Origin: Macrocystis pyrifera
Taxonomy: Eukaryota > Sar > Phaeophyceae > Laminariales > Laminariaceae
DNA length: 64,000 nt
Direction: 5' to 3'
Assembly (NCBI GenBank): GCA_031763025.1
Contig: JASSKH010000002.1
Location: 13,881,468-13,945,467 of the forward strand
Both the position numbers and the translations under genes were made by a program. This document shows, piece by piece, positions 3,400 to 60,810 of this stretch (its first letter is position 1; the number at the start of each line of letters is the position of its first letter). The notes under the pieces are model-generated. The model was not told where the DNA came from. It ran no database searches and saw only the letters and a list, made by a program, of their open reading frames with translations.

Positions 3400-3743
3400 T
3401 GTGATAGAGTACCTTGATTTGTAGTTAATATACCAACCATCAGTAGGGGCCGTTAGATATTATTATTCCGGTTGGATCTTACTCCTTTTACCGTGTGGAA
3501 TAAAATATTTCGTATTTGTAGTATTTGATACCCAGGCTAGTATTCCTTCGTACATGTACGTACCCCGTTAACTGTTTGGAATAAGATATTTGTATTTGCT
3601 AAAAGGATACGCAGGCTAGTATCTAAGTAGCCGAGGGGACGGAGATGTACGCGTGTGGTATGTTCGTACGCCAAGTTTTACGGGGTGTTGTACTATTGAC
3701 GTTGAGGGTGACGCATGCAACCTTGCCAGTAGATTATAGCCGG

Positions 3744-3772
3744 TTGAAGCCAGATGATACTTCTGGCTTCAA
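3744..3772 (+). promoter_or_regulatory. Conserved LTR hairpin
   Basis: TTGAAGCCAGA and TCTGGCTTCAA form a perfect 11-bp stem with a 7-base loop, about 70 bases upstream of the AATAAA. The 29 bases are unchanged in the 3' LTR (17306-17334), although the LTRs around them have diverged. It could be an RNA structure near the transcript 3' end, but its role is not known. Confidence 0.6.
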
Positions 3773-3841
3773 AAACCATCTGCTTCCCCCCCCCCTCCCT
3801 TCTCACTCTTCTCGATTGCCGCTTCGAGCAAGCTTCGCATC

Positions 3842-3847
3842 AATAAA
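3842..3847 (+). promoter_or_regulatory. AATAAA polyadenylation signal in 5' LTR of element A
   Basis: AATAAA within the sequence CAATAAAATAAG. The same signal is at 17404-17409 in the 3' LTR, where it would serve to end the element transcript. Confidence 0.5.
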
Positions 3848-3961
3848 ATAAGAGAACGCCAATACGAACTAGGTCTGAGTTTGACCAAGCACAGACACCT
3901 GTGCCACACCTGTTCTGTGGATCATCATCTCTTGGAACCCTTACCACTCTCCCACATCACA

Positions 3962-6769: not shown

Positions 6770-8220
6770 CATGGATGACAGCTCCCCTAAGCTCCTGCCC
6801 CCCCCAAAAAACAACGCAATCTCCATTGCACCACTACCTCCACAGTGTCCAGCGACCCCGACATCCCTGCTCACCAATGCAACCTCCATTGCAGCCCAGG
6901 CCCCTCCGCTTCCAACGGCGCCCGGCCTCGTACTCTCCATTGCACCAGTGCAGGCTCCAACACCCGTACCAAACAGCATGATCCCCACTACATCGGTACT
7001 CTCTCAACACCCAGTCGCTCCCACTTCCACACCGGTCACCCCCACTCCCACACCAGTCCCCCTTGTCGCAACTCCCACTACGCCCCAAACCACTGCAGCT
7101 TGTGCCCACGACTTTGATGTCAACCGCAAGTACATCGACTTGGACTATCGAAAATTGGAGCTCATCGACCCACTCCCTTTTCCCGCGGGAACCGACGACT
7201 GTGTAGGAGTTCAACAACTCATAGCTAGCGCCAATCTTGAATTGGAGGACATTCTCTCACGCTGTGACGACTCCCCGGACGGTATTCTAGACTCCCTGCG
7301 TTGGACACCAGGATGGATCACCCCGCTTCACCGGTGTTTCCGGATAGAAATCAAGACAAACACCAACTCCCCGTTGTCCCTCCTTATCAACAACACTTTT
7401 AAGCAGGTGCGCGATCACCTTCGGGAGAAGGATAATGCTGACCCGTCTGCCTTTCGCTTACTCTTGAGTCTGTTGAGCACGCACTTTGACCACGGCGATC
7501 AAGGCCGCGCATTCGGGCAGCTTCAGGCGTTCGGAGTACCAACGGGCACGGTGTATTCAATTTATTTGCGGGCTTTGAGGGAGTTGACATCCGTGGTGCA
7601 AGGTTCTGAAAAGGTCTTTAAGCTTAGCGATGCCATGGTGCTAGAGGTAGTGCGGACAAGTGTTAGCAGACGGTTCCTGCTTTGACTCCGGTATCGTACC
7701 CGAGTGAATTGATGACTGCGGTAGAACCTTCCCCTTCGATCCCGGCCATGTGGCAGGCTCATGAAGTGTACGCCACGAGTAACACACCTACCATAAATGG
7801 CAAAAATATTCTTCTTATACCTCCCCCGGAGGCCCCACGACGTTTTCGTCGTCCCCGCCGTCATCGGCTCCTGCTCAGCAGACCCGTTCGCGCAATCATC
7901 CCAACCCAAACCAACAAGGCTCCCAACGCAACCCCTACGTCATGAACGTCTCTACGTCCCCAGACACTGACCCTTTCCCTCTGGGTTACAACCACTGGTC
8001 TCTCGAACACTTCGATGAAGTGTACATGGTGTCTACCACGTTTTCGACCACCGGCCCCCCTCTCTGGAGTCCTCTCCTTGGCGCTACTGCCAGAGCGACT
8101 GCTCTTCGCACATGGCGTGGCGTATGTCTCAACTGCAGCGGAGAGGACCACAGCGTCAAAACGTGTCAAAGTCCCTTCATAAACAAGTCACGTGTGCTCA
8201 ATCCCGGCTCGACCAGATAA
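6770..8220 (+). pseudogene. Gag-like region of element A (capsid-like part and zinc knuckle)
   Basis: After a Pro/Thr/Ser-rich N-terminal stretch, the plus strand encodes a helical, Leu-rich segment (about 7110-7640) with the feel of a retrotransposon capsid domain: repeated Leu/Phe heptads and a segment reading FRLLLSLLSTHFDHGDQG. Near 8120-8170 there is a zinc knuckle of the C-x2-C-x4-H-x4-C type (CLNCSGEDHSVKTC), which in Gag binds nucleic acid. Position before NADAR, protease and RT fits Gag. The remnant is broken. The capsid assignment rests on position and helix character, since I could not run a profile search. Confidence 0.55.
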
Positions 8221-8229
8221 ACGACGGAG

Positions 8230-9790
8230 GCTACGCTTTTCAACAGTGGCAACAACGTATGCTCTGATACCGTCGGGGACAATATGAACGTCATGCTCAC
8301 CGGAACTCGAACTCTTATCCCAAGCGTTGCAACTCGAGGGGACACAACTCTGCCGGCAATTCCAATAACAACCGCCGATCCAACTCCCATTCTAAAAACG
8401 AGCGCTCCCACGGCAACTCTAACCGTACTGCAGGCTCCCAGTGGACCAACTACTCTCCCAATAACAAACAATCTCGGGATAGTTCGGCACAGTAACTCAC
8501 CCCCCCCTCCCCTCAAGGGCCTCCTTCATCTGCCCTCACCGTTACCGGTCCCACAACCCAGACCTCCACTCCCCCAGCTAACATGCGCCTCGGCCCCTCA
8601 CAACATGGAGGAAGTAAAAAATCCCTGCAACCGGGCACCTTCCGTACTAACTGACCAGCCGATGGTGAAGACTCGCTCGCCACTTCACCAGCGGCACTAC
8701 ACGCGACCGCACCGGGTACCTCTAAAGATTCTCGGACAGCGTATTTTGCTGGAGCCGCTGGCTCTACATACTCTCCCGACCCCCCCCCCCCCCTTGCCCC
8801 CCCCCCTCCTAACCTATCTTATATATCAACCACTCCATCTAGGGTTGGCCCCCTTGTTCAAGCAGTTGGTTTGAGGTGTGGGCAGGAGGAGGTGGGCACA
8901 CCGAGCACTCCCTCACCGCTCCCCTCGGTGTCCCCACTCGATGCGCGACGCCGCGCCTTGCCCGACAGTGCCGAAATTTGTGCGGATCTTGCCAATCTTG
9001 TGGGCGACACGACAACAACGGCCAACGGCGGTATCCACTCCCTCTCCGGCTCTGTTTCCCCCCCAGGATGCAGCTCACCCTTCATGCGACTCGCCGGACA
9101 CCTCACAGCGCTTCGCGCTTGGTGCAAGTAATGTCTGCCTGGTAGGTGAAAACCCGACATGCTCCGTCCCGGCATTGCAGGGATGCGAGGGTCTATGGTC
9201 ATACGACTACGGCCATGCATGAGATCGAGTACATCTCTCCTATCGAGTACACCCCCCCAGGACCATCGACCCCTGACTCGTCTACGTCGTCTGACCAACG
9301 ATGTCATCGGCGCACGTCATACAGCGTCCGCCGATCCCGGACAGTCCATTCTACGACCTGCGTTGGTTCCACAGGTTCTCCCGGACTCGTAGCTGCCCGC
9401 CCCGTGCTGACCACACCACTGTCCCTGGGCCCAAGGGACAGTTTTCCCGCGGACTCATCCGCGGAAGACTCGACCAAGTCACCAAAATTATGCCAGGAGT
9501 CACCTGTGCCGGCACCCACGCCCCGGTCACGGACTACTACAGGTACCGCACGTTCTTCCGAGTTTCTCCCTCCTCCGCATACATTAAATGCCGCTAGCAG
9601 GGACTCCTAGGGTGCTTCGTCACGACCGTCACGCCGGCACGTACATCTTCCCGGAGCCTCGACACGATCGACCTCACTCCACACGTCTTCGGGGACCAAA
9701 GCCGTTTTTTTTCCCACGCGCTCCCCGACAACGTCTCACACCACGTCTCCCCCCCCACTCCCCCCGACCCTGAACCCCTCCCAAAATATA
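8230..9790 (+). pseudogene. Pro/Ser/Thr-rich linker between gag and NADAR, element A
   Basis: About 1.5 kb coding for Pro/Thr/Ser-rich low-complexity protein with no recognisable fold. The stretch around 8870-8920 (frame reading LRCGQEEVGTPS) has a counterpart in element C near 53010 (LRCGREEAKTPS), so the linker is shared by both elements. The piece 9067-9262 also occurs, about 97% identical, inside the giant palindrome at 40833-41027. Confidence 0.5.
9419..9441 (+). promoter_or_regulatory. Conserved small hairpin upstream of NADAR, element A
   Basis: CTGTCCCT and AGGGACAG form an 8-bp stem with a 7-base loop. Element C has the same stem with a different 8-base loop at 53336-53359, at a comparable distance before its NADAR domain. 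It could be a structured RNA signal at the gag-pol boundary or only conserved coding sequence. Confidence 0.4.
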
Positions 9791-9796
9791 TATTTT

Positions 9797-10234
9797 TTGG
9801 ACCAATCGTCGGTCTTCTCTCAGTGGTACCCTTCGACGTTCACCGTCAACAACGAGCAATACAACTGCGAGGAACAGTACTTAATGTCGGAGAAGACCAA
9901 GCTTTTCGGCGACACAGCAGCTTGCCGGAAGATCATGTCCTCTCCGAATCCCGCACAACAAAAACACCTCAGCCGCTCCGTCTCCAATTTTAACCAAGAG
10001 ATTTGGGCACAGCATCGGTACGACATTGTTTTCAAGGGCAACCTCGCCAAGTTCTCGGCTCCCCCCTTACTACAACTCGTAGACACCGGTAACAAGTTCC
10101 TCGCCGAAGCAAGCCCTCACGATCTCGTCTGGGGCATCGGCTTCCGGTCTGACGATAAGCGAGCTTTTCAACCTCTACACTCGCCGGGACTCAACCTGTT
10201 GGGCGACATCCTCATGAAGATTCGCCACCAGCTT
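9797..10234 (+). CDS. NADAR domain (YbiA-like), element A
   Basis: About 146 residues match the NADAR family along their whole length. They open with SSVFSQWYP, followed by a YNCEEQYLMSEK stretch (family pattern: Ser/Cys-x-Glu-x-Tyr...Lys), a central conserved Trp (EIWAQHRY), a KF motif, then TGNKFLAEASPHDLVWGIG and GLNLLGDILMKIR. The family is represented by E. coli YbiA and by NADAR partners of DarT1-type toxins; known members cleave N-glycosidic bonds of riboflavin intermediates or remove ADP-ribose from guanine in nucleic acid. The Glu, Trp, Asp-x-x-Trp-Gly and Asn-Leu-Leu-Gly positions expected in the active-site pocket are visible. The domain lies between gag and the retropepsin. Fold assignment is firm; the reaction in a retroelement is unknown. 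Confidence 0.85.
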
Positions 10235-10486
10235 GACCCCCCCCCCCCTCCACTCCCGCCCTCTCTCCGCGCTTCTCGCGTCTCACCCTCCGAAAATGGG
10301 ATTCACGAAATCAGTGCAACCGTTCCGTCTCCCACCGTGCCCTCCGCACTGGAACACCTGCTGCCCCCCTTTCTCCCTGAAGCCACTCCTCCGCACACAT
10401 TGGTCTCTGCCATTTAGTCCGGAGCTGTTCTTCCCCTTGCATTTCTCTCCCTCATTGCCGAACATGGACCGGGTCTCTCGAGCGAC

Positions 10487-10900
10487 ATGGTTACCGTCGA
10501 CGACGCCTCCTTCGCGATCAGGATCAACGTACACAGTGGACCCTCCGCGTCCAACCGCTACGGCCTAGTAGCTCTCCTGGACACCGACTCCCCCCGGACC
10601 TTCATCTCCGCTGAAGCTTGGACCCGTGAGAAGCGCAACAATGCTGCGTCGGACATCTGTGAACGACACCCTTCTCCTCGTTCCTGGGGCGGCTTTGGTA
10701 AATCCATTCCGCTCCTCACTTCGATTTCCGTCCGACTCAGCATCCAGTTCTTGTACGACAGCACTCCCTCCGCCGAGCTCGCCGTATGGGCGTGCATCGT
10801 GCCGCATGGAACTATGCAATACCCCGTTCTACTGGGACGTGATAGCTGGATACGTTTCGAACAACGCACGTACTCCACCCTGCTCCGCCTCCCCTCGCGA
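10487..10900 (+). pseudogene. Retropepsin-like protease region, element A
   Basis: Reads VDDASFAIRINVHSG, then a hydrophobic-hydrophobic-Asp-Thr motif region (LVALLDT), and about 80 residues later YPVLLGRDSW, the Leu-Gly-Arg-Asp motif that closes the retropepsin fold. It corresponds in position and sequence to the DTGS-bearing protease of element C. In the family it processes Gag-Pol. Confidence 0.7.
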
Positions 10901-11419
10901 CCGCTCTTTGGCGAGCTCTCTCTAACCACTTCTTCCAAGAATGGCCTCTCCACTTTCATCTACTACAACCGACCTTCCCCCGACACCCTACACCTCGAGT
11001 TCGCCGGCGCTCACGCAGTCTCACTTTCGGCTACGCCGTCTCCCCTCCCGGTTAAACTGGTGCGTCCCTCCAGCATTTCGGTGCCCACCGGCCGCTACCT
11101 GGTTGACATGCTTCCCCGCGACGGTCTTTTCCCCGAAACCGAAATCTTCGTCGCCAACGGCTACCAAAATATCCCGCTCTAGGGTTTCATTGATCTTGAA
11201 CCAGGCGACCTTCTGGGGACTCCCTCTTCTCCCCTCATACGAATTCCGGTCTCAGCACTGCAAGGTCTCCTCGCGACGTCACCTCCAGCCTCAGCTGTTT
11301 TCGACGTTCACGCCCTGCACGACAACATCCCCGAGCACGACGACGGTACACCCCCCGCGGATCCCCCCAAGACCCCTTGCCGCAAGCTCGTGGAGCGCCT
11401 AACGTCCGACCAACGAACA

Positions 11420-12890
11420 AGCTTCCTCCGCCCCTGGCTCCGACTTCCGCTACACCTCCGCGAAAGCTCCTTCGACCCCCGCGGTTCTGGTTGGTCCCCT
11501 TCGGTCATCACAGCCCTGGGGGAAGTTCTTAGCGAGTTCCCCGATGTTTTCTCCAAGTCGAAAACCGACTTCGGCTCGTGCTCCCTTATTCCGTCCAAGA
11601 TTCCCATGCCCCCGGATAGCGCCCCCGTATTTTCCCGCCCTTACCGCATTAACCCTATTCTCGCCAAGCAGGCCGACGCTGTGCCCGACCAATATCTGGC
11701 TGCCGGCCTGATCCAGCACTCCACTTCTCCATACGCCAGCCCTACGGTCGCTATTCCCAAGAAAGACGGCAACGTTCGAATAACCTTGAACTACAAAAAG
11801 CTTAACGCCATTAGCTCCCTGGGCCAACTGCCCATTCCCCGCGTCCACGAGGTTCGCGACTCCCTCGGCATAGGCCACATCTTGTCCCTGTTCGATCTCG
11901 TGTCTTAGTTCCACCAAATCACCATCGACAAGGACACCATACCCCTGACTACCTTCTGCACGACCACCCGACTCTTCGAGTGGCTCGCCATGCCCCAAGG
12001 CAACAGCGCCGCGCCTGGCTGGTTCGTCAAGGTCATCAACGAGGTTATCAAAGAGCTTGACCGCGTAGCGGCCTACCTCGACGCCGTCATAGTTTTCGAC
12101 CCCGACCCTGCGGCCCATGTCTCCAACATCCGCTCCCTTTTCAAACGCCTTCGAAAACATAATCTCAAGCGCTCTCCGTCCAAAGCCAAGCTTGGCGCTA
12201 CCAGCGTCGACTTTTTGTGACACACCATTTCCTCCTCCGGCGTTAGCCCTAACGCCGCCAAAGTTGCCGCCCTAACCCAGATGCCCATGCCTACGAACAC
12301 CAAGCAAGTACGCTCACTTCTCGGAGGCATTGGGTACTACCGTAAATTCCTGAAGAACCTCTCCGCTCGGCTCCGACCCATTAACGTCCTGCTCAAACAA
12401 GGCGTTAAGTTCGTTTTCCCCCCGGAAATGGAAAATATCGTTCGCCAGATCCTCCAGGAACTCGCTACCCCTCCGACCTTGGCATGCCCAGACTGGGATG
12501 CCGTTGGCGACAACTACCGACCTTTTCGCCTCTATTGCGACGCCAGCATCAACGGTTTTGGCGCGACTCTCTAACAAGAACAACTCGACGGTTCCGTCCG
12601 TCCCATAGTCTTTATCAGCTGCACCAGCCTCGACAACGAATGATCCTGGACCCCCCTCGACCTCGAAGCCGGTAGCATCGTTTGGGTCATCAAACGCCTC
12701 CGCGGCCACCTCTGGTCCACCAAGTTCCACATCTACTCTGACCACAAGGCACTTGGGAGTAAGTCGGCGAACACAACGCTCACGTCCAACCCTGGCTGGA
12801 ATTCCTCCCCGCCTATTCCTACACCTTGGAGTACCGAAAAGGCTCAGCTAGTGGCCATACCGACTTCCTGTCTCGACTCCCACAACCAGC
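11420..12890 (+). pseudogene. Reverse transcriptase and RNase H region, element A
   Basis: RT fingers and palm motifs are recognisable from about 11590: GLIQHSTSPYASPTVAIPKK, then VRITLNYKKLN, LPIPRVHEVRD and FEWLAMPQG. RNase H follows, with FRLYCDASINGFGATL near 12525 and the closing YRKGSASGHTDFLSRLP near 12835-12880. The order protease-RT-RNase H is that of Ty3/gypsy. The region is broken. Confidence 0.85.
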
Positions 12891-13159: not shown

Positions 13160-13375
13160 GTTAAAGATACCGCCGCTGGACCGCGTCGCAGCCTTCCCGC
13201 CGGCCTCCACTTTGCTCAAGATGCCGCCGCTGGATTGTCTCGCAGACTTCCCGCCGACTCACGCTCTGCTCAAGATATCGCCGCTGGATCGTCTCGCAGA
13301 TATCCTGCCGGCCCCCGCTTTGCTCAAGATATCGCCGCTGGACCATCTCGCAGCCTTCCCGCCGGCCCCCGCTTT
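13160..13375 (+). repeat. 54-bp (18-residue) repeat, four copies, element A pol
   Basis: Four in-phase 54-bp units encode an 18-residue repeat with the pattern AQDIAAGPSRSLPAGPRF. They lie in a Pro/Ser/Ala-rich insert between RNase H and integrase. Element C has a Pro-rich insert at the same place (about 55860-56650) without this repeat. Confidence 0.75.
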
Positions 13376-14214
13376 GCCCAAGACCCTACCGTGAGCTCGC
13401 TTCGCAGCGCCTTCGTCGGTCACCTCTCTATCCTCGACCCCATCGCCGAATCGCCTTCCAGCTCCGAGAAAGCCGCCGTGACCGCTGGCGCTCCTGCTGG
13501 TGTGGTTTCCAGGCCACCCTTCGTCCCCCCATTGTCCACCTTGTGCGTCTCACCTTCGGCCACTCCTCGTTCCTCGTCGGGCTTAATTTCTTCTCGGACC
13601 CGTCATCGTTCCGCCGCTGCCGCTGGGACTCCCCTTACTCCTACGCACGACGGATTTGGCCGTCGAAGGTCAACTACGGCAGTCTCAAGACCTTTACCAA
13701 CCCACCGCTGTCCGCCTGCCGTCGCGCCCAGGCCACTGCCTCGGCCACCGGATGCAGCTCGTTGCAGCGCCGCTCAAGACTCTCCCTCACAGCTACTCCA
13801 GCCAGCGCTACGCCACCAGTGTTCCTGCCACCACCACAGTCCACCGCCCCAGGGCCTTCTCCCCCGCACTCCCCTACTCAACCACTCCCACCACCTGAAT
13901 CCGTTGTCCGGTCTGCTGACGACCCACACCTTAGTTCCTGCGTTGAGCGTTGTACCTCCACCGACTGGGCGCGCGAAGAACACACCGAACCCCTTTGCTC
14001 AGCTACCATACGATATTTTTCCTTGGGCTCACCTTCACCACCACCGGGTGACCTCTTGGACTACATTCCCTCGACCCGTCGCTCACTTCTCTCGGACGTC
14101 CTCGCCCTCGACGCGAAAGGTCAGCTGCATACAACCGACGACGACACAGTCCTTCTCGTTCACCGACCACACATGGCTCCCATGGGCCAACCTCGTACGA
14201 CTACGCCGTAGCCC

Positions 14215-15310
14215 CTCACATCGCCACCTCGCATTTACGTTCCAATGTTGATGCGACCGTGGGTCCTACACACTTGCCACTCGACCACCTCGTGCCACCT
14301 GGGTGTTGCTCGGACACTCACGATGCTTATGCGCTTCTACTGGTGGATTGGCATGGACATCTCCACCCACTGGTGGCTCCGCCGCTGCCTTAAGTGCCAG
14401 GCGCGAAAGTCTTCGCGCCAAACAATTCGCTGGCCCACCCTATCCCTGCCGCCACCAAACGGCCCCGGTATTCTCGTCAGCGTCGACTATTTCGGGCATT
14501 TACCCATCACGCCTCGGGGCAACGCCTACATCCTTCTTTTCACCGACCGTTTCATCCGCCGCGCCGACATGTATGCCACTACTGAGGCCGAGTTCACAGC
14601 ATCCGACACGGCCGACATCCTCGTCGATCGCTGCTTCCCTCTCTGAGGATGCCCCGTTTCTCTCCTTTCCGACAACGGCCTTCAATTGTGCGCCAAACTC
14701 TCCCGCGCCCTCTACGAGCGCCTCGGCATTAACAAAATCTCCACGAGTTCCTACCACCCCTGCACCAACGGTGGCGTCGAACGCGTCAACCACACCATGG
14801 CCTTGATGCTCGCCAAGGAAACGAACTACAAAAGGATTGGAACTTGCAACTTCCTCACGTCGAAAGCGCCTACAACAACTCCGTCAGCGCCGTCACCGGG
14901 CTGGCCCCCAACGAGGTGCACATTGGCCGACTGCCTCGCCTCCCCCCACTGTGTTCGACTCTCCCAGCATTGGCGGACATCAAAGCCTCAACCGGGACCA
15001 GCTCGCTTACATTGACCTCGCCACTGCTTGCCAGCAACGCGCCTACCGCGCCGTCCGGGAACTCCACGCTGTCTACGTCTCGCGCCTCGACCGCCGCAAT
15101 GCTCCCATCATGGATGCCCTCCGCCTTTCCCCTCTGTTCTCTGTCCATGGTTGGGCATGGATCTACAACACAGCTGCCACTATTCGCCAAGGCGCCAAGA
15201 AAGGTACCGACGCCTCAGTTCTCAAGACTAAAGTTTCCTTCACCTGGATTGGCCCGTTTAAGATCTTTGCCGTGGGCCCTGCACCAGCCTCGGCCGTTCC
15301 GGATGGACGG
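14215..15310 (+). pseudogene. Integrase region, element A
   Basis: An H2C2 zinc-binding region (His...His in HTCHSTTSCHLG, then CLKCQARK) at about 14265-14415 precedes a DDE core: Asp in SVDYFGHLP (about 14485), Asp in LLSDNGLQL (about 14670) and Glu in GGVERVNHT (about 14770-14795). The GPF motif (FTWIGPFKIF) follows near 15237-15265. In the family it inserts the cDNA into chromosomes. The copy is broken. Confidence 0.85.
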
Positions 15311-15534
15311 CCCCTTCACGACAAGCTCCTGTATTTCGACCTTCCCTCGGACATGCCGGGACGTGACTCCAAACACCGCGTCTGTCCCCGTTCTCCGCTG
15401 TAAGCCCTGCCGGAACCCCGACGACATCGACAATCTCTCCAAACACCTACCGGCCGACCTGACCAAGTATGTTCTCAGCTCCTTCTCCACCAAGTCCCCG
15501 TCCTTCCGCGTCACCTTCGAGGACATCTCTCCAC

Positions 15535-15710
15535 CGCCCGAAGGCCTCGAGGTGGACCAGATCTCGCGACACCAACTCGTTCGTGGCCGGGGAAGCGTTC
15601 TCGCCGTGATGTACGAAACACGCTGGGCCGGACTCCTTAGCCCTTCTTGGGAACACGAACGAGACCTACAGCTCCACCGATCCCACATCCTCCGCTATTG
15701 GTCGGGCACC
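15535..15710 (+). pseudogene. Chromodomain-like module at pol C-terminus, element A
   Basis: About 55 residues read EVDQISRHQLVRGRG, YETRWAG, LSPSWEHERDL and HILRYW. This matches the chromodomain plan: a first strand with paired aromatic/hydrophobic residues, then Y-x-x-x-W, then S/T-W-E-x-E-x-x-L, then a C-terminal helix ending in YW. Element C has the same module at about 58005-58180. In chromoviruses such modules direct integration to marked chromatin. The assignment is by motif only. Confidence 0.65.
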
Positions 15711-15869
15711 CCTTCACAGCACCGCCAGACCAACCGTTTATACCGCCAGATACGCATCGGGGCCGCTCAGCGTAAACTATCGCGGTCCCGGGGTGAAAAC
15801 TTCCTCGCTCCCGGGTACAGCCTCGTACCACGCACCCTTTGGCTTCACCGCTTCAGCTCTTCACCTCTA

Positions 15870-16080
15870 CCTGCCGGGGTACACCTCTGGTACAAGGCCC
15901 GCGATGGTCTCTGGTGGTTGGGCAAAGTTGCCCCGTGCGTCTCGACCGACACCTCCGCTAACTCCTACATCGCCCGCTTCCTCAACGACCCGGGCCCGAT
16001 CAAGATCACACACCTTCCATCCCTCTACACCACTCCACGGAGCGTGACTCAAGGATCCTGGTGCCTTCAGCATCATCAGG
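15870..16080 (+). pseudogene. Tudor-like aromatic module after the chromodomain, element A
   Basis: Reads GVHLWYKARDGLWWLGKVA, then about 20 variable residues, then YIARFLNDPGPIKI. The pattern G-x-x-x-Trp-Tyr...Asp-Gly-x-Trp-Trp-x-Gly-Lys-Val...Tyr-x-x-x-Phe-x-x-Asp is that of Tudor/Agenet-type SH3-like barrels. It is conserved in element C (GAHIWYKALDGLWWLGKVA). I infer a second chromatin- or peptide-binding module; no profile search was possible. Confidence 0.5.
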
Positions 16081-16154
16081 CCGGAGGACTAGCACGCGGA
16101 GTACTGCGAAATGCTAATGCACTCCCCCCACCACTCGTCCGCCCGACCAGTTAA

Positions 16155-16960: not shown

Positions 16961-17503
16961 TGTGATAGAGTACCTTGATTTGTAGTTAATAGACCAACCA
17001 TCAGTATGGACCGTTAGATATTATTATTCCAGTTGGATCTTACTCCTTTCTACCGTCTGGAATAAGATATTTCGTATTTGTAGCATCCGGTACGCAGGCT
17101 AGTATTCCTTCGTACACGTACGCACCCCGTTAACCGTTTGGAATAAGATATCTGTAGTTGCTAAGAGGATACGCAGGCTAGTATCTAAGTAGCCGAGGAG
17201 ACGGAGATGTACGCGCGTGGTATGTTCGTTCGTCAGGTTTTACGGGGTGTTGTACTACTGAAGTTGAGGGTGACCCATGCACCCCTGCCAGTAGATTATA
17301 GCCGGTTGAAGCCAGATGATACTTCTGGCTTCAACAACCATCTGCCCCCCCCCCCCTTCCCTTCTCACTCTTCTCACTTGCCCCTTCGAGCAAGCCTCGC
17401 ATCAATAAAATAAGAGAACGCCAATACGAACTAGGTCCACCTGCGTCACACCTCTTCTGTGGATCATCATCTCTTGGAACCCTTACCACTCTCCCACATC
17501 ACA
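16961..17503 (+). repeat. 3' LTR of element A
   Basis: 543 bp, TGTGATAGAGTACC to CCCACATCACA, paired with 3400-3961. It carries the hairpin at 17306-17334 and AATAAA at 17404-17409. By eye there are about 38 differences from the 5' LTR, plus one length difference of around 20 bp near the 3' end. Confidence 0.9.
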
Positions 17504-22927: not shown

Positions 22928-23312
22928 TGTTGGTCATAACCGTTCGCCATAAGTCGCACACATGTCTGATGTGTCTGATCGTGGATACGTGTGATTTGTA
23001 TAAGTGGATATTCCGCCAGGCTGGTGTGTCTAATCGTGCGGATACGTGTGATTTGTGTAACTGGAAAAATGCGGCGGGATTTATGATTTCCCGAATGGGT
23101 TTTGGTATAAACATCATCTGGATACCTTTATGGGGTCCTGGAACGAAGGGATAGCCCCCTTCGTTCACTTCTTCTTCTTCTTCGTCATCGGTGGTTTCTA
23201 ATATACACCTGGTTCAACATCTTCTCTCTGGCCTCATGGCAAACTCCCGGGTGTTCACCCACTGTCCCTCGTAACCGAGGCAATCCATTGCACGAGGTGA
23301 TCGATTATGCCA
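22928..23312 (+). repeat. Left 385-bp LTR-like repeat of element D
   Basis: It starts TG and ends CA and has the same length as 26569-26953, with about 2% divergence by eye. Recognisable segments include AAATGCGGCGGGATTTATG, GAACGAAGGGATAGCCCCC, a (CTT)n run and CAATCCATTGCACGAGG. Confidence 0.7.
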
Positions 23313-26568: not shown

Positions 26569-26953
26569 TGTTGGTCATAACCGTTCGTCATAAGTCGCAC
26601 ACATGTCTGATGTGTCTGATCGTGGATACGTGTGATTTGCAGAAGTGGATATTCCGCCAGGCTGATGTGTCTAATCGTGCGGATACGTGTGATTTGTGTA
26701 ACTGGAAAAATGCGGCGGGATTTATGATTTCCCGAATGGGTTTTGGTATAAACATCATCTGGATACCTTTATGGGATCCTGGAACGAAGGGATAGCCCCC
26801 TTCGTTCACTTCTTCTTCTTCTTCGTCATCGGTGGTTTCTAATATACACCTGGTTCAACATCTTCTCTCTGGCCTCATGGCAAACTCCCGGGTGTTCACC
26901 CACTGTCCCTCGTAACCGAGGCAATCCATTGCACGAGGTGATCGATTATGGCA
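26569..26953 (+). repeat. Right 385-bp LTR-like repeat of element D
   Basis: Paired with 22928-23312. It is preceded by GACTAGGGAGGC, a short purine-rich tract ending directly at the TG start. Confidence 0.7.
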
Positions 26954-43579: not shown

Positions 43580-44790
43580 ATGTCATTTGCATCTGCTGGT
43601 AAATCTTTCCCAGCAGTTCATCGTACTAGCAACCCTCCCTATCGCCCCGCTAACCCCTCCACTGCCTCTTCCCCCGACCCAAATATGTCCGTCGCTGCTG
43701 TCCACCATGATGCAGTAGGAGTATATATAATCTTGCGCGAACGTGTCGATCTTAAACCTCGACACGAGGCTCTTGTCGTAGCTTTTACTGATTGTCCCCC
43801 TGTCCAGGATTCTACTGTTGTCGTAGAACCTCGAATAATGTCTGAGCTTGAGTTCTTAGAATCAGGTAGTTCGTCGGTGTTCGAGAAAATCATTGTCGCT
43901 CGCACCCTCGCTACTTGGTATGCTGCTGACGGCTCAGTAGCAGTGCAACTTGCAAACCCGTCCTCTGATGGTGTTGCACTTCCGATTGGTTTATGTCTTG
44001 GTCAGTTATTCACTGTGTCAGTAGTGACGCCTGATCAACTACATGTGAACGCTGTTGAGAAAACTCCTAAATCAGTCAATGAACTCGTTCAAGCCAAATC
44101 AGAGCTTGAAGGTCCCTTGTCCAAAGCATTCACCGATACTAAGCTTTTACCTGACCAAAACGCCGCTGTCATTGATTTGTGCGCCCGGTACCGTCCTGTC
44201 TTTGCCTTGTCTATGTCAGAGCGTGGTCGTTGCACCAATGCCGAGGCAACGTTTCCCTTGCCCGCTGACACCCGTCCTGTAGACCGTGCTCCGTACCATG
44301 CCAACCCTCGTGCTACAGCTGCCATTGATAAATGTGTCCATGACATGCTAGAATGGGACATAATTGAAGAGCGTCCTAGCCCGTGGGGTAGCCCGTGTAC
44401 TGTTGTCGCAAAGAAGAACGGTAGCCCTCGTTTCTGTGTTGATTATCGTCATACCCTCAACCGTCATATCGTCCGCAAGAGTTGGCCCCTTCCGAACCTG
44501 GATTCCTGTCTGGATGCAGTAGGAGGCGTCAAGTTCATCTCTACTGCCGATGTCCTCAGCGTGTTCTGGCAACTGCCCGTTGCAGAAGAGCACATCGACC
44601 GGACAGCATTCGTCACTCCTACTGGCAAGTTCTGTTTCAAACGTAAGCCTTTTGGAGTTTGTAATGCTCCGTGGTTGTTTCAACACATGATGTCTGTCAC
44701 TTTTAGCCACCTTGGTCCAGAATCAGGTATTCTTACGTATATATTGATGATATTAGTTGTCTTAATTCTACGTTCGAAGCTCACCTGAAA
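43580..44790 (+). CDS. Reverse transcriptase region of element B
   Basis: From about 44230 the RT domain is clear: PYHANPRATAAIDKCVHDML and WGSPCTVVAKKNG, then RFCVDYRHTLNR, WPLPNLDSCLDAVGG, FISTADVLSVFWQLPV, FVTPTGKFCFKRKPFGVCNA and the YIDDI catalytic box encoded at about 44740. Upstream about 200 residues link to the protease. These are the Ty3/gypsy RT motifs in order; the enzyme copies the element RNA to DNA. Confidence 0.85.
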
Positions 44791-44802
44791 TCCCTTGAGC
44801 AA

Positions 44803-45530
44803 ATGTTCTCAGCGTTGCAGGCAGCAGGCCTAACTTTGAAACCGAGTAAACTTCAGTTCGGTCAGAAAGAAATCGAGTACCTTGGCCACGTTATTTCGGA
44901 AAAAGGCATCTCAATCAGTGCCGACCGTATCAAAGCCATTCTCGCCCTGCCTGAGCCTGAGTATATCAAAGATAATCGCGGATTTTTAGGTACACTCAAA
45001 TATGTCCGCCGTTTCATAGACGGTTACGCTGAAATCACAGCGCCGCTGGTTGAACTCACTCGTAAGGATTTTGTCAAAAAGGCCGCTTTCAAGAAGGCGT
45101 TTGGGCCCGCGCAACGTGAAGCTTTTGCTCGCGCTAAACGCGCCCTAACCTCTGCACCGGTTCTTAAATACCCGGACTTTACTCGAGAGTTCGTTATCCA
45201 TACCGATGCCTCAGAAGCAGGAGTAGGAGCATTTCTCGCTCAACCCTCACTCGACGGTAGCTCCGATTCTGATCTTGACATCATCGCGTATTACAGTCAC
45301 CGCTTTTCAAAAAGCCAACGTCATTATAGTGCGACCATAAAAGAGTGTTGTGCTGTGGTCTGGGCTGTCACCCACTGGCGTCCTTACCTATGGGGTAAGC
45401 ATTTCACTTGCTGTACCGACCACCAAGCACTTACGTACCTCTACAAAATGCAGGATACCTCTAACATGTTGACCCGATGGGCAATAGCACTTCCGAATTA
45501 TTTTTTTCACTGTCAAGCATGTCGCAGGCA
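44803..45530 (+). CDS. RT thumb/connection and RNase H of element B
   Basis: RT thumb motifs (LTLKPSKLQFGQKEIEYLGH, then VRRFIDGYAEITAPL) are followed by RNase H: FVIHTDASEAGVGAFLAQ (first catalytic Asp), YSATIKECCAVVWAVTHW (Glu) and FTCCTDHQALTYLY (Asp). RNase H removes the RNA strand from the hybrid during cDNA synthesis. The segment is a close match in length to Ty3/gypsy elements. Confidence 0.85.
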
Positions 45531-45541
45531 AGTTAAATGTT

Positions 45542-47386
45542 GTGCCTGACATGCTGTCTCGTGCTTTTAGTGAAGTGAACGGGGAACCCATCCCATCCGA
45601 GCCCAGATTGGCCACGATTTGTCGTAACGTTCCAATAGACGGACCTTACTATCCACCGGGACCCCGCGAATATGAATTGTCAGCTTCTAATTTGCACGAT
45701 GTAGCACCTGTCGAAAGCGATCGTGAATTGTTCATGAGCGCAGTGTCTGTCTTCCCTACTATAGATCCCGCGAAACTTGTCGATCTACAGAAAGAGGAAT
45801 TTTGTCAATACTTTGAGTATCTCCATGCGCCCACATCGGCCCCACTCCCTCCTGCAGAATCTAAGTACACGATGAGCTACTTCTTTTTAAATGAAGGATT
45901 GCTATTTCAGTCTTATCTTCCTGGTCATCTAAGGAAGCGTAGCACTTTCCGAGATCAACTGGTAGTGCCTACATCTCTCCGAAAAATTGTCATCAATTTG
46001 TGTCATGACTTACCAGCGTCCGGAGGTCACTTAGCTTTTAAAGCAACGTTCGACACTATTCGAGATATATTCTGGTGGCTGACAATGCCCACGGATGTCC
46101 GTACTCATATCGAAACTTGTCTGTCTTGCCAACACCATAAGTCATCCCACCGCGGGCCAAAGTTGCCTGTGGGACACCGCCCTGTCATGCGTGTGTTCCA
46201 ATGCGTCGCAGTTGATCTTGTCGAGTATAAGAGTTTGTCACAAGGAAATCGTTTCATCCTTTCGGTCATTGACCATCTAACTCGATTTGTCATTTTGATA
46301 GCGATCAAAGATAAAGCGGCTCGCACGATAGTTCGTCATTTGATCGAACGCGTGTTCTCGGTGTTTGGTTCCCCAGAAACTCTGCATTCCGATCAGGGGA
46401 CGGAATTTGAGAATCAACTTGTCAAGGAATTGCAGTCAGTTTTTGGCTATAAGAAAACGCTTACAGCAGCCTTTCGCCCTCAGGGCAACTCTGTCTTAGA
46501 GCGTGTTCACAGCACTGTCCACAATATGTTGGCTATGTATAGCAACTTGTCGTTCGATAACTGGACAGAGCTGTTACCCTTTGTCCAATTAGCGCACAAC
46601 ACCGCTTACTCGACCACGCTCCAGGAAGCTCCTCATTTCCTCGTGTTTGGACGCGCAGCTGTACTGCCTGTCGATCTCATTCTAAGAGTACCGTCCACCT
46701 CCGCACCGCAAACTCAGCTCGATTATTCGAAACAAACTGTCGCAAACTTGCAATTTGCATACGAGCTAGCCCGCCGTAATCTCAAAGAGCGAGCGGATAA
46801 GCAAGCGGCTGTCAATGAGACTCTGTCATTTCCCAGTTTCAACACTGGTGATCAAGTACTGATCCACCGCCCATACAACGAAGATGATGGTCCCAATCCC
46901 AACTTGATCAGCCCTTGGCGTGGACCGTATACCGTACGAGCGCAAATGTCCCCCGTCATCTATCGTGTCACTAAAGATGGCAACCCAACCGAGATTACTG
47001 TCCATCTAGGCCGGATGAAAAAGTACTTTGTCCCTCTGTCTTCCCCTATCCCCGACCTTGATGCGCTCGACGATTTGTTTTTGGGGACCACTCTCTCAGT
47101 GCCCGATCTTGAAGGCTCCTTGTCAAAAGTTACGATCGGTGCGTTCACAGTTGAGAGTATTGATGGACACAAAAGGGGAGTAGGAGCAGCATCTCTGACT
47201 AACTTTCAGTACCATCTCAAGCTTGAAGGTTATCCTACCCAGATGGGTATATGGCGTCATGTCAACGCCCTTCCTCAATGCAGAGAAATGATTGCTTCCT
47301 ACCGTGCTGCAGTATTGTCGACGGATTCCTCAGCATTTAACCCCCCTCCGCGGAAATCTCGTACTGTTCCCGCGGATGTACCGTAG
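45542..47386 (+). CDS. Integrase of element B
   Basis: About 614 residues. An H2C2 zinc-binding region (HDLPASGGHLAFKAT...CLSCQHHK) precedes the DDE core: Asp in CVAVDLVEY, Asp in LHSDQGTEF and Glu in NSVLERVHST. A GPY/F motif (SPWRGPYTVRAQ) lies near 46915-46945. The C-terminal ~110 residues are of unknown fold and do not look like a chromodomain. It catalyses cDNA insertion. It is the longest open frame of element B. Confidence 0.9.
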   Translation: MPDMLSRAFSEVNGEPIPSEPRLATICRNVPIDGPYYPPGPREYELSASNLHDVAPVESDRELFMSAVSVFPTIDPAKLVDLQKEEFCQYFEYLHAPTSAPLPPAESKYTMSYFFLNEGLLFQSYLPGHLRKRSTFRDQLVVPTSLRKIVINLCHDLPASGGHLAFKATFDTIRDIFWWLTMPTDVRTHIETCLSCQHHKSSHRGPKLPVGHRPVMRVFQCVAVDLVEYKSLSQGNRFILSVIDHLTRFVILIAIKDKAARTIVRHLIERVFSVFGSPETLHSDQGTEFENQLVKELQSVFGYKKTLTAAFRPQGNSVLERVHSTVHNMLAMYSNLSFDNWTELLPFVQLAHNTAYSTTLQEAPHFLVFGRAAVLPVDLILRVPSTSAPQTQLDYSKQTVANLQFAYELARRNLKERADKQAAVNETLSFPSFNTGDQVLIHRPYNEDDGPNPNLISPWRGPYTVRAQMSPVIYRVTKDGNPTEITVHLGRMKKYFVPLSSPIPDLDALDDLFLGTTLSVPDLEGSLSKVTIGAFTVESIDGHKRGVGAASLTNFQYHLKLEGYPTQMGIWRHVNALPQCREMIASYRAAVLSTDSSAFNPPPRKSRTVPADVP

Positions 47387-47740: not shown

Positions 47741-48193
47741 CGTGATATGGGTGGAGTATTCATGGGCTATAGATATAGATAATACGTTGCAGTCTTGTAG
47801 TCTCACGAATACGAGAATAATCCAAAGAATGGACTAACGCGGCGGATTTTCCGTTAGTCGAGAGTAACATTCTTTTAGGAATGTTCCCTAGGGTGGATAA
47901 CCCCCTAGACGAGAGTAATATTCCTTAACACAGATAGGACCACGAAGTGAGAAGTTCTTATATTAGCAGAAGAACGACCGGTAGCCATAGGAAAGTTCTG
48001 TAGGCGTACATCAGATAAGAGGAATTTAGGAGAGCTTGTGGCGTGGGGTGGGACGAGTATATCTGGGCGTCGAGTCCCGCCCCCTACCTCTCACTTCTCT
48101 ACCCGAGCACCTCCTCAGCTCTCGCCATCAATAAGAAGATCTAAATCAGAGTAAGCGAAGCACCGCTTTTCCAGCTGCCGTCGGATCATCACA
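47741..48193 (+). repeat. 5' LTR of element C
   Basis: 453 bp, from CGTGATATGGGTGG (3' copy TGTGATATGG) to GGATCATCACA. It contains inverted pairs GACTAACG/CGTTAGTC (47832-47859) and CTAGGG/CCCTAG just downstream. It shares the GTGAT...ATCACA end plan with element A. The internal region follows with TCTGACGTCGTCGC. Confidence 0.9.
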
Positions 48194-53767: not shown

Positions 53768-54218
53768 TTCTGGGACTCCTCTTCGGTCTTTTCGCAGTGG
53801 TACCTGTGCGACATCGAACACGATGAGTCCACATACAACTGCGCTGAGCAGATGATGATGGCGCAGAAGGCCGCGCTCTTCGGGGACATCACAACTGAGC
53901 GCCGCATCAAAGCGACCCGCGACCCGGCCCGCCAAAAAGCACTTGGGCGAACCGTTTCCGACTTCGACGAAATGGTCTGGGAGCGACACCGCTACAACAC
54001 CATCGTCCTCTACATTAACTTCTCCAAGTTCCGCCAACACCCGGAGCTACGGGAGGAGCTAATAGCAACCGGCGACAAGCACATCGCCGAGGCCAGCCCA
54101 CACGACCTCATCTGGGGCATAGACTTCAAGGCCGACCATCCGGACGCCTGCGACCCGACGCGTTGGCGTGGTCGGAATCTGCTGGGCAGGATACTGATGG
54201 ACGTTCGAGAAAGCGTCG
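53768..54218 (+). CDS. NADAR domain (YbiA-like), element C
   Basis: About 150 residues. It opens SSVFSQWYLCDIE, then YNCAEQMMMAQKAALFGD, KALGRTVSDF, MVWERHRY, NFSKFRQHPELREELIATGD, HIAEASPHDLIWGIDF and WRGRNLLGRILMDVRE. This follows the NADAR profile from end to end, more closely than element A (KF-x-QH-x-EL, ATG and WRGRNLLG are near-canonical). The conserved Glu, Trp, Asp-x-x-Trp-Gly and Asn-Leu-Leu-Gly positions are visible. The frame runs on without a break into the retropepsin, so in this copy NADAR is the N-terminal domain of a pol polyprotein. Known NADAR proteins act on ADP-ribosyl-guanine or N-glycosides; the role here is unknown. Confidence 0.9.
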
Positions 54219-54499: not shown

Positions 54500-55490
54500 C
54501 CATGCCTTACAAGCGGCATCATTACCGTCGACGACGCGTCGTTCATGACGAAAGTACTCGTGCACGGCGGCCCCACCGCCACTACGCGCCGCGAACTCGT
54601 GACACTGCTCGATACCGGCTCGCCCCAGTCGTTTATCACCGCAACCGCGGTGGAACAACTGAAGGCTTCCCAGGCAGCCACCGATGCGTGGGAACGGCAC
54701 AGTTCCCCCCGTTCATGGGGAGGTTTCGGTACTTCAACCCCCCTCTCCACCTCCGTTTCCATCCGCTTAAGCATCCGGTTTACGCGCCTCCAAACCCCCA
54801 CCGCTGCCCTGGCAGTATGGGCCTGCGTAGTTCCTGCAGGAACCATGCAGCACCCCATCCTTCTGGGACGAGACAGCTGGATGCGCTTCGAGCAACGCTC
54901 GTATACCACGCTCCAGCAACACCCCCCCACCCCCCCCCACCAACCTCCCCGGCGAACCCGCGGTGAGCTCTTCTTGAATCACCATGACCCCAACGGAGCC
55001 TCAGCATTAATTCCCGACGATCGTTCCACTGACGACGTCTACCCCCTCCGATTCGCCGGCAACAAAGCTATTTCGCTTTCTTCCACCCCCAAGCTCGTCA
55101 AGGTCAACCGGGCGCGTCAGTCAGGCGCTCCAGCATTTACCGGGAACTACATGGTGAACATTCTCCCCCGCGAGAACCCCCTTTCCGACACGGCCATTTT
55201 CGTCTCCGACGGATACCAAACGGTCCCACTATCTGGATCTACTGATCTCGAGCCGGGCGACCTCCTCGGAACCTCCTGCTCCCCACTGGTACATGTACCA
55301 CTTTCCACCCTTGGACACCCTTCCTTGGCCCCTCCCCATCCCTCTCCGATTCCGGATGCACATGCCCTCCACGACATCATCCCCGTGGCCGACCAGAGCC
55401 CATCCACAGACGACCCTCCTACCGCACCAAAGCCCCGTGCCCACCGCTCCTTGCACGCCTCAACGCTGATCAACGGGAAAGCTTCCTAAA
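54500..55490 (+). CDS. Retropepsin of element C
   Basis: Same frame as the NADAR domain, after a Pro/Ser/Thr-rich linker of about 100 residues. TVDDASFMTKVLVHGG leads to LVTLLDTGSPQSFI, the Asp-Thr-Gly-Ser active-site motif of aspartic proteases. HPILLGRDSWMRF about 95 residues later supplies the hydrophobic-hydrophobic-Gly-Arg-Asp motif. A C-terminal segment (ENPLSDTAIFVSDGYQTVPL...) precedes further pol sequence. In the family it cuts Gag-Pol and acts as a dimer in the particle. Confidence 0.8.
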
Positions 55491-55739
55491 CCTCTGGCAA
55501 CGCCTGCCGTCACACCTACGCAACGTCGACTTCGACCGTCGTGGTTCTGGATAGACCCCATCGGTGATGAACAACCTGGGCGACGTCCTCTGCGAATTCC
55601 AGGACGTCTTCTCCACCACCAAGACTGACTTCGGCTCGTGCCCGCTAATGCCGTTCAAGATCACCGTACCCCCGGACAGCCCAACGGCTCGAGCTCCTTT
55701 CAGCGTACACCTACACGCTGGAGTACCGGAAGGGCACTG

Positions 55740-56690
55740 CCAACGGCAACGCCGACTTCCTCTCCCGGCTTCCCCAACCAGCCGCCGACGCCGACCGCAT
55801 CAGACGCAACCGCCTCACTGGCACCGACACCGTCGGCATCTACCTCATCGGCCCCTGCAGCTTCGCGCCGAACGACCATTCCGCCCCGGGTATCGGCTTG
55901 GGTGGGCTCGTGTCCCCCCATCCCAACCGTCCAGCCGCTCCCCTTCACCGACGACGACTTCCGCGACTTTAGCCTACTCGGACCACGTATGGAGTACCCC
56001 TCGCTTTCCCCCGCAACCCACACCTTCATCGGGCCTATTGCGACCCGCGACTCCACCACCGGACAGCTGGCCGGCACCGAGAATGCCGCCGTGAACGCCG
56101 GAGCTCCTCCAGGCTCGGCTTCCATGCCGTCCGTCGTCTCTCCGCCGCCCACCATTGTGGCCACGACACCAGCCCTTCTAGGTCTGATATCTTCTCGGAC
56201 CCGCCATCGCGTCGCCGCTGCCGCGGGAACCCCTCGGCCTACAGACGACTACCGGTTTGGACGCCGACCGCCGCCCAAGCCATTGGCGCCCACTACGCAA
56301 AGAGGGACCCCCTCAACAACAACGCCCTCTCCGCCGGCACCAACACCACCGGTAGTGCCCCTTCTTGAGCCCGTCGTCGAACCCGATGACGACCCCTACC
56401 TCCTCGCCTGCGCGTCGAGCACTACACCTACAAAGACTGGGCGCGAGAAAAACGCGCGGAGCCCCTGTGCTGCGCCACCATCCGCTTCCTGTCGTTGGAC
56501 TCCCCCAGCCCCACGCCGCACGACCTCCTGGGCTTCATCTCCCCGGCCCGGCGCCCACAACTTTCGGACGTCCTCACTCTTGCCTCCAAAAGCAAGCTAC
56601 ACCGTACCGACGACGAAACCACCCTCCTGGTCCAACGACCACCCACAACCTCATCCGGGAACAGCCTACCACCACCCGCCCCCTCTACCC
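55740..56690 (+). pseudogene. Pro/Ser/Ala-rich pol spacer of element C
   Basis: Begins with sequence equivalent to the RNase H end of element A (a YTLEYRKG-like stretch near 55710) and continues as Pro-rich low-complexity coding sequence up to the integrase. Element A has a matching spacer (about 12890-14215), including shared ATDHVWT/SYPLL-type segments. The function is unknown; a flexible linker is likely. Confidence 0.5.
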
Positions 56691-57770
56691 CACGCGCCTA
56701 CGTGCCAATGTTAATGCGCCCTTGGGTGCAGAACACATGCCACGCCACCACCTCTCTACACTTGGGAGTCACCCGAACGGTCCGCATGTTGGCACGTTTC
56801 TTTTGGTGGATTGGCATGGACGCTTCCGTCCGCTGGTGGATCCGCCGTTGCCTTCAATGCCAGGCGCGGAAGACCTCCTGGCACACCATTCGTTGACCCA
56901 TCCTTTCTCTTCCTTTGCCCAACGGGCCTGGCATCACCGTCAGCGTCGACTACTTCGGGCCCCTGCCGCTCACGCCGCACGGGAACGTCCACATCCTCCT
57001 CTTCACAGACCGCTTTAGCCGCCGCGCCGATATGTATGCCGTTTCAGCGCGCAGTTCACGGCCGCCGGCACTGCCGACATCTTCCTGAACGAGTACATCC
57101 CTCTCTGGGGGTGCCCGGTTACACTTCTCTCCGACAACGGACTACACTTCACCTCCAAGCTTGCGAACACCGTCTACGAACGCCTTGGCATCCACAAGGT
57201 CAACACCAGCTCCTACCACCCCTGCACCAACGGCGGCGTCGAGCGCGTCAACCACGTGCTGGCTCAAATGCTCTCTATGGTTGGCAACGAACAGCAGACC
57301 GACTGGGACGTGCTGCTCCCACACGTGTCGTCGGCCTACAACAATTCCGTGAACGCCGCCACAGGGCTTGCACCTAACGAAATCCACATGGGCCGCTTTC
57401 CTCGCCTCCCGCTCTCGGTCTTCGAACCCGACAACATCGGCGGTCACCAAAGCTTGGACCGCGATCACCTGGTTTACATCAACCTCGCCACCGACCGACA
57501 ACGACGCGCCTATTCCCTCGTCCGCGAACTACACCGACTCACCGTCTCGCGCCTTCAGCGCCGCAACGCGCCCATCATGGCCGCCCTCCTAGCACCCCCC
57601 CCGCCTTCACCGTAGGCGGCTGGGTTTGGGTCTACAACTCCGCCTCAACCATCCGCCAAGGCGTCAAAAAGGGCACCGACGCAACCGTCCTCAAGACGAA
57701 GCTTTCCCTGAACTGGAATGGCCCCTTCAAGGTCCTCGCCGTAGGGCCGACGCCCGCTTCAAACACCCCC
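56690..57770 (+). pseudogene. Integrase region of element C
   Basis: H2C2 region (NTCHATTSLHLGVTRTV, CLQCQARK) at about 56725-56870. DDE core: Asp in VSVDYFGPLPL (about 56940), Asp in LLSDNGLHF (about 57130) and Glu in GGVERVNHVL (about 57230-57260). GPF motif (WNGPFKVLA) lies near 57715-57740. It is close to element A in every motif. Confidence 0.85.
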
Positions 57771-60310: not shown

Positions 60311-60810
60311 TGTGATATGGGTGGAGTATTCATGGGCTATAGATATAGATAATACGTTGCAGTCTTGTAGTCTCACGAATACGAGAATAATCCAAAGAAT
60401 GGATTAACGCGGCGGATATTCCGTTAGTCGAGAGTAACGTTCTTTTAGGAATGTTTCCTAGGGTGGATAACCCCCTAGACGAGAGTAATATTCCTTAACG
60501 CAGACAGGACCACGAAGTGAGAAGTTCTTATATTAGCAGAAGAACGACCGGTAGCCATAGGAAAGTTCAGTAGGCGTACATCAGATAAGAGGAATTTAGG
60601 AGAGCTTGTGGCGTGGGGTGGGACGAGTATATCTGGGCGTCGAGTCTCGCCCCCTACCTCTCACTTCTCTACCAGAGCACCTCCTCAGCTCTCGCCATCA
60701 ATAAGAAGATCTAAATCAGAGTAAGCGAAGCACTGCTTTCCAGCTGCCAGAACAACCTGCGTCCCTTACCACTACCCTTGCCACTACCCTAGAGCGGTCT
60801 CCGCATCACA
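60311..60810 (+). repeat. 3' LTR of element C
   Basis: 500 bp, TGTGATATGGGTGG to CCGCATCACA. It matches the 5' LTR closely for about 430 bp. Its last ~70 bp are longer than in the 5' copy and contain CCCTTACCACT, a segment also present near the end of the element A LTRs. It is followed by TACT, the right target duplication. Confidence 0.9.

Follow-up and report, generated by a model that had tools for sequence, protein, structure and literature searches.

What is a NADAR domain doing inside a retrotransposon of a kelp? The question is raised by a stretch of 64,000 nucleotides from the genome of Macrocystis pyrifera (assembly GCA_031763025.1, contig JASSKH010000002.1, positions 13,881,468 to 13,945,467 of the forward strand), hereafter called the window, in which two Ty3/gypsy elements, A and B, each carry a domain of this family (PF08719). 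We propose, tentatively and with a probability of about 0.45, that a catalytically equipped NADAR of the YbiA type is a standing part of one brown-algal Ty3/gypsy lineage and would erase guanine-linked ADP-ribose from the RNA or complementary DNA (cDNA) of the element itself.

A preliminary description, made from the letters of the window alone, had placed a full-length NADAR domain between the Gag-like region and the retropepsin of an element bounded by long terminal repeats (LTRs), and the analysis bears this out. The PF08719 profile matches the open reading frame (ORF) 9797-10417 (+) with E=5.1e-42 and 144.3 bits against a cut-off of 35.1, over profile positions 9-162 of 163, which removes the doubt about a missing profile score. 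The features of element A are the following:

3400..3961, + strand, 5' LTR, with the ends TGTGAT...ATCACA
6771..7685, + strand, Gag-like ORF of 304 amino acids, named by position only, with no Pfam match
8125..8166, + strand, Gag CCHC zinc knuckle (C-x2-C-x4-H-x4-C), translation CLNCSGEDHSVKTC
9791..10234, + strand, NADAR domain (PF08719 E=5.1e-42; model against 8bau, template modelling (TM) score 0.85; 13 ADP-ribose contact positions mapped)
10505..10903, + strand, retropepsin (tblastn with the family-B protease, E=7.7e-55, 63% identity; DTD in place of DTG)
11690..12256, + strand, reverse transcriptase (RT; tblastn E=7.6e-101, 79% identity; two in-frame stops)
12380..12837, + strand, RNase H (tblastn in two pieces, E=4.2e-65 and 2.1e-9; two stops in 12380-12754)
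14230..14883, + strand, integrase (PF17921 E=1.4e-12 on ORF 14245-14643; tblastn E=2.6e-100; one stop)
16961..17503, + strand, 3' LTR, with the polypurine-like AGGGTGGGCTAA directly before it

The order Gag knuckle, NADAR, protease, RT, RNase H and integrase is that of Ty3/gypsy elements apart from NADAR. The two LTRs are 93.0% identical over 542 aligned bases (38 mismatches, two gap runs), and the four bases flanking them agree at three of four positions. The window copy of element A is dead, because its frames hold in-frame stops (one of them between NADAR and the end of the protease), the DTG motif of its protease is altered and its NADAR is two residues shorter than those of its relatives. 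By eye, a chromodomain-like motif can be made out near 15.6 kb; a Pfam search of this region (14844-16151), and of positions 6806-9088 of another copy, L011, gave no match at E<=1. Element A also contains two sets of repeats, an 89-bp unit present eight times in tandem in the leader between the 5' LTR and Gag (5076-5797) and, in the gap that separates RNase H from integrase (13164-13407), four direct repeats at 54-bp spacing.

The NADAR of element A (9791-10234) was modeled with AlphaFold on a 36-row alignment, with a predicted local distance difference test (pLDDT) value of 93.8. The best match of the model in the PDB is the Phytophthora NADAR with ADP-ribose (8bau, E=5e-10, TM 0.85), followed by E. 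coli YbiA (2b3w, E=4.8e-7, TM 0.78), and no other PDB entry matches at E<=0.001.

The Macrocystis pyrifera assembly (537,376,219 bases in 223 contigs) was searched for further copies, and at least four NADAR-Gypsy families were found, namely A (the window copy at 9.8 kb), B (the second window element), W and D. The PF08719 search returned 1264 first-look candidates, and all 150 that were scored exceeded the cut-off. With the NADAR of element A as query, 150 of 1217 candidates were scored and 77 matches of at least 66% identity were recovered, counting the window copy and, as two, adjoining pieces on one contig; beyond these, identity falls to 54% and 51%. By eye, none of the 77 overlaps the 150 profile hits (24 of the 150 were checked by script). 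Family D was seen in one copy (L224/L230, reverse strand), whose identity to W is 60% for NADAR and 75% for RT-RNase H; the copy also holds protease and RT (read in two pieces).

Twenty copies, picked for long open frames, were retrieved together with 3 kb of upstream and some 6 kb of downstream sequence; NADAR is followed by protease in all 20, RT and RNase H are present in 13 and integrase in 19. In each of five additional copies of family A, NADAR is followed by protease, RT and RNase H, which brings the count of copies with protease after NADAR to 27/27 tested, both window elements included. In copy L009 a single uninterrupted frame of 1696 codons encodes NADAR, protease, RT and RNase H. 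The reverse test, with RT-RNase H as query, scored 106 of 4103 first-look candidates (weakest listed identity 73%): 48 have a listed NADAR 1.7-2.4 kb upstream, and a random 20 of the other 58, read individually, carry NADAR in 19 cases and lack it in one, L227. The domain thus stands upstream in 67 of the 68 RT copies examined, which supports the preliminary claim of a Ty3/gypsy lineage marked by NADAR, and the 77 family-A matches together with the sister families B, W and D speak against its concern that the domain might be absent from other copies. The window itself contains a third, more distant member of the superfamily:

43580..47386, + strand, third Gypsy element with RVT_1, RNase H and integrase, its RT-RNase H about 33% identical to that of W

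No NADAR match was found in this third element, the NADAR queries hitting the window at 9.8 kb and 53.8 kb only (E<=1e-4).

These counts rule out a contaminant or one-off host insertion. The collections searched for relatives comprised only prokaryotes and viral contigs, and the closest NADARs in them are bacterial and viral-contig sequences at most about 58% identical to W (short partial matches and one locus, L121, described below, set aside), as might be expected if a host gene or bacterial contaminant lay by chance near a retroelement; such a coincidence is scarcely credible with NADAR upstream in nearly every RT copy examined, at about 1.7-2.4 kb where listed, and sharing a single frame with Pol in copy L009.

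Conservation of the catalytic residues was assessed in 47 copies, comprising the two of the window and 45 from elsewhere in families B and W, with L005, L008, the five further family-A copies and the D copy kept apart. E43, K50 and E125 (Phytophthora numbering; residue roles from PMC11543638) are all kept in 45 of the 47, and by eye in the family D copy too; 41 copies retain every one of nine ADP-ribose contact residues. The position of Y84 is occupied by Phe in 46/47, and the D86 contact is lost. At the E125 position, which is Glu in the YbiA subfamily and Asp in the BC4488 subfamily (PMC11543638), all 47 copies have the Glu of the YbiA subfamily. Between families, the ratio of nonsynonymous to synonymous substitution rates (dN/dS) of NADAR is 0.17 (W-B) and 0.27 (B-A), as compared with 0.15 and 0.15 for the protease and 0.08-0.09 for RT, placing the between-family constraint on NADAR near that on the protease. 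The retained residues, the ADP-ribose-bound NADAR as best structural match and this constraint together support a working enzyme, and from sequence and model we predict that a NADAR activity of this lineage is plausible.

What such an enzyme might act on is suggested by its relatives. NADARs hydrolyse guanine-linked ADP-ribose in DNA, the Phytophthora enzyme included (PMC11543638). In one panel of hydrolases, NADAR was the only family to remove guanine ADP-ribose from RNA, E. coli YbiA being active on this substrate, less than C7 NADAR; according to the available text of that study, NADARs did not act on ADP-ribose at phosphate ends (PMC11833690). NADARs are also packaged in phages and embedded in the polyproteins of animal RNA viruses, and those of RNA viruses have been argued to remove host ADP-ribosylation (PMC9503650).

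The scheme that we propose builds on the presence and place of the domain, its fixity among the examined copies, the residues it keeps, the fold predicted for it and the constraint between families; the preliminary description had already raised, as a possibility, that the element undoes ADP-ribosylation of its RNA or cDNA by a host or symbiont defence. NADAR occupies the N-terminal region of Pol, after the Gag zinc knuckle and before the protease, and some copies at least encode it in a single frame with protease, RT and RNase H. It would be translated and packaged with the RNA of the element. In the particle it would strip ADP-ribose off the guanines of the element RNA or of the new cDNA, and reverse transcription and integration would thereby be freed from a putative block by ADP-ribosylation of host or symbiont origin. 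We favour protection of nucleic acids because a Pol-borne NADAR would share the particle with the RNA and the cDNA.

The second NADAR-bearing element of the window, element B, differs from element A in its coding content:

47741..48193, + strand, 5' LTR, with TACT directly before it; its first base is C, not T
53768..54217, + strand, NADAR domain (PF08719 E=1.8e-37, part in ORF 53852-55489; tblastn 93% identity to family B)
54536..54913, + strand, retropepsin (tblastn E=2.5e-73)
55687..55688, + strand, RT-RNase H deletion junction, about 1.17 kb missing (breakpoint relative to copy L010)
56630..57349, + strand, integrase (tblastn E=2.6e-99)
60311..60810, + strand, 3' LTR, with TACT directly after it

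RT-RNase H is absent from element B and from seven of the nine fetched family-B copies. Relative to L010, the deletion breakpoint falls within 2 bases in four aligned copies (L012, L013, L027 and element B), eight RT-less copies have similar sequence at the junction, and NADAR is kept in all eight RT-less copies read, element B included. The junction and, for the B copies that have RT, the start of RT were then counted in the genome as 25-base patterns with at most two mismatches, the reversed patterns giving 0 hits for both. Among the fetched copies the junction pattern recognizes 7/7 RT-less ones, 0/2 RT-bearing B, 0/11 W, 0/5 A and 0/1 D, and the RT-start pattern both RT-bearing B copies and none of the others. 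The genome holds 124 RT-less junctions and 68 RT starts, so that by pattern count an RT-less derivative that keeps NADAR outnumbers its RT-bearing parent, in a ratio that is approximate because a 25-base pattern misses decayed copies.

Element B moved rather recently, given its perfect 4-bp target-site duplication (TACT) and LTRs that are 97.6% identical over 451 aligned bases (five gap runs); the RT for this movement was presumably supplied in trans. The sequences of NADAR, protease and integrase persist in the element. In both RT-less copies translated (L012 and L013) the reading frame shifts past the deletion, which leaves in doubt whether all the domains of element B are translated.

If the RT-less derivative receives its RT in trans and retains NADAR in cis, it may need a NADAR of its own to spread. 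Taken to its end, this would mean that an undiscovered guanine-ADP-ribosylation system of brown algae, or of their symbionts, acts on retroelements and that the lineage has an eraser of its own built into Pol, an extension that we regard as doubtful. The retention of NADAR in the RT-less derivative (124 junction hits, 8/8 copies read) would equally suit a structural or RNA-binding module, serving in packaging or in the spacing of Pol, with enzyme activity incidental. The fixed position downstream of the zinc knuckle points the same way, as does the role in processing RNA intermediates suggested for the Ectocarpus domain (PMC12477816). Against such a module stand the residues that bind and cleave ADP-ribose in the Phytophthora enzyme: E43, K50 and E125 are retained across A, B and W (45 of the 47 copies), and inspection by eye shows them in the D copy as well. 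We consider this explanation quite unlikely.

The sampling, the selection tests, the trees and the search for host writer enzymes all yield points that weigh against the protective role proposed here. For the residue count, copies were drawn from the hits with the highest scores, a choice biased towards intact copies, and family A contributes a single copy to the 47. Between families dS is saturated, the W-A comparison has no finite value for NADAR and protease, and family A is represented by the decayed window copy; in identity, NADAR (47-52%) ranks below protease (55-63%) and RT (73-79%). Within the young families, omega is only weakly below neutral for W (0.69, P=0.052, n=18), 0.72 for B (P=0.09, n=22) and 1.11 for the RT-bearing B copies (P=0.67, n=7), with a value of 0.57 for the RT-less ones (P=0.034, n=13); B copies were sorted as RT-bearing or RT-less by eye from the places of the patterns, two that fitted neither counting only in the total, and in one test 6 of the 43 NADAR copies, which differed in length, were omitted. 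These within-family tests are weak and do not decide. Their near-neutral values, the many dead copies and the large coding losses tolerated in RT-less copies are what one would expect of a passenger, fused once and open by mere descent with no present benefit. This is very unlikely in our view, since A, B and W, whose RTs are 73-79% identical with saturated silent sites, keep both the residues and an open domain that drift alone would probably have destroyed.

The trees bear on the origin of the domain. From 152 NADAR loci of prokaryotes and viral contigs, 145 were stop-free and at least 120 amino acids long, and 121 remained at less than 80% identity; the trees, of 71 and 73 rows, omit the oomycete, the majority of the viral rows and four others that were short or had long branches. 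The preliminary description had asked whether the retroelement NADARs form one clade; the six retroelement rows do group in the best, 73-row tree, and the support for that group is weak (57/54; 70/8 in the smaller set). Within it, A joins B (98/80) and W joins D (99/97). The RT tree shows the same unrooted split of A-B versus W-D (100/99); rooted on the distant, long-branched third element of the window, it places the root beside W, with D joining A+B (100/100), that is, elsewhere than the root of the NADAR tree. The simplest reading, which is not proven, is that the domain was acquired once and then inherited. A separate acquisition by each family is not favoured, because RT and NADAR share the same unrooted split. 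The locus L121, set aside above, lies at the end of a contig filed as a Litoreibacter metagenome-assembled genome, where the remains of a NADAR of the W type, 79% identical in its best piece, are joined to bacterial-looking DNA; it is probably an algal contaminant or a chimera.

As to the writers, genome searches within the limits set by introns gave no match for DarT (PF14487), the partner gene in DarT1-NADAR toxin-antitoxin systems, and a single partial match for PARP (E=3e-6). KptA/Tpt1 matches above the cut-off were obtained, and their chemistry differs from guanine ADP-ribosylation; a guanine-ADP-ribosylating writer was thus not identified among these three groups. KptA/Tpt1-type enzymes yield ADP-ribose phosphates, and the matches to them lead to the thought that the kelp NADAR might instead degrade signals or by-products derived from NAD or ADP-ribose, in particles or in cells. 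Immune signals, RNA-repair products and reactive riboflavin intermediates would be the candidates. Small-molecule targets are preferred for phage NADARs (PMC9503650), and bacterial and plant NADARs clear intermediates of the riboflavin pathway (PMC11543638). The kelp domain, with Glu at the E125 position in 47/47 copies, is of the YbiA type, which leaves the substrate unsettled because E. coli YbiA is active on RNA with guanine-linked ADP-ribose as well (PMC11833690), and for the clearing of a diffusible compound, covalent attachment to Pol would be a strange arrangement. We consider a small-molecule target unlikely on the whole, and retain the erasure of guanine ADP-ribose from the RNA or cDNA of the element as the favoured reading.

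Several other features were noted in and around the window. The contig from which it comes is enriched in NADAR, with 26 of the 150 scored profile hits versus 4.1% expected, 9 of the 77 family-A matches and 24 of the 100 listed among the 124 RT-less junctions (counted by eye). Between 35627 and 41298 lie several large inverted repeats, some nested, with arms of 85-282 nt and 90-99% complementarity, possibly a foldback or DNA transposon; positions 40830-41025 are 97% identical to 9065-9260 within element A. Two direct repeats of 385 bp, 22928-23312 and 26569-26953 (98.4% identity, 3.6 kb apart), are perhaps the LTRs of another element.

With a hydrolase domain fixed in Pol, brown algae become a place to search for a eukaryotic defence based on ADP-ribosylation of nucleic acids. 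Intact residues, an ADP-ribose-binding fold and a natural RT-less derivative that keeps NADAR turn this, in the kelp, into a clear hypothesis.

The preliminary description knew of no Ty3/gypsy family defined by this domain, while allowing for earlier reports, and one such report exists. A NADAR-bearing Gypsy lineage, with Gypsy-12_Ec32 as an example, has been described in Ectocarpus, with NADAR at the N-terminal region of Pol in all its families and almost only bacterial NADAR hits (Dinatale et al. 2025, PMC12477816). The kelp elements are therefore not new in kind, and share with that lineage the place of the domain and the predominance of bacterial sequences among its nearest NADAR relatives. 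New here are the kelp families, the counts, the residue and structure evidence and the RT-less derivative, so that the value over the Ectocarpus report lies in extension, numbers and testability. No further account of NADAR in an LTR element was found among the matches listed in the open-licence PMC literature; a stress-induced NADAR protein of Ectocarpus, Esi0017_0056, has been reported in a paper whose available text does not contain the word transposon (PMC7922944).

Compared with the Ectocarpus lineage as described in the available part of that report, the kelp genome has at least four families and an RT-less derivative that outnumbers its parent, and Gypsy-12_Ec32 is reported to carry a C-terminal chromodomain on its integrase (PMC12477816), whereas Pfam recognizes none in the kelp integrase region. 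The NADAR of Phytophthora nicotianae (8bau) has in common with the kelp domain the fold, E43/K50/E125 and most ADP-ribose contacts; the two are 32% identical in the structural alignment, the D86 contact is absent and Y84 is replaced by Phe in the kelp. The available text on the Phytophthora enzyme gives no association with DarT or with retroelements (PMC11543638). E. coli YbiA (2b3w) shares the fold (TM 0.78) and the YbiA-type glutamate, and is a stand-alone bacterial enzyme. By the description in PMC12477816, Tx1 LINEs of the Pacific oyster likewise carry NADAR in a retrotransposon, in ORF1, and are non-LTR elements of only divergent similarity. Animal RNA viruses such as the nidoviruses resemble the kelp elements, by description, in combining NADAR and a polymerase in one polyprotein and in having an RNA stage, and differ from them as positive-strand RNA viruses without LTRs (PMC9503650).
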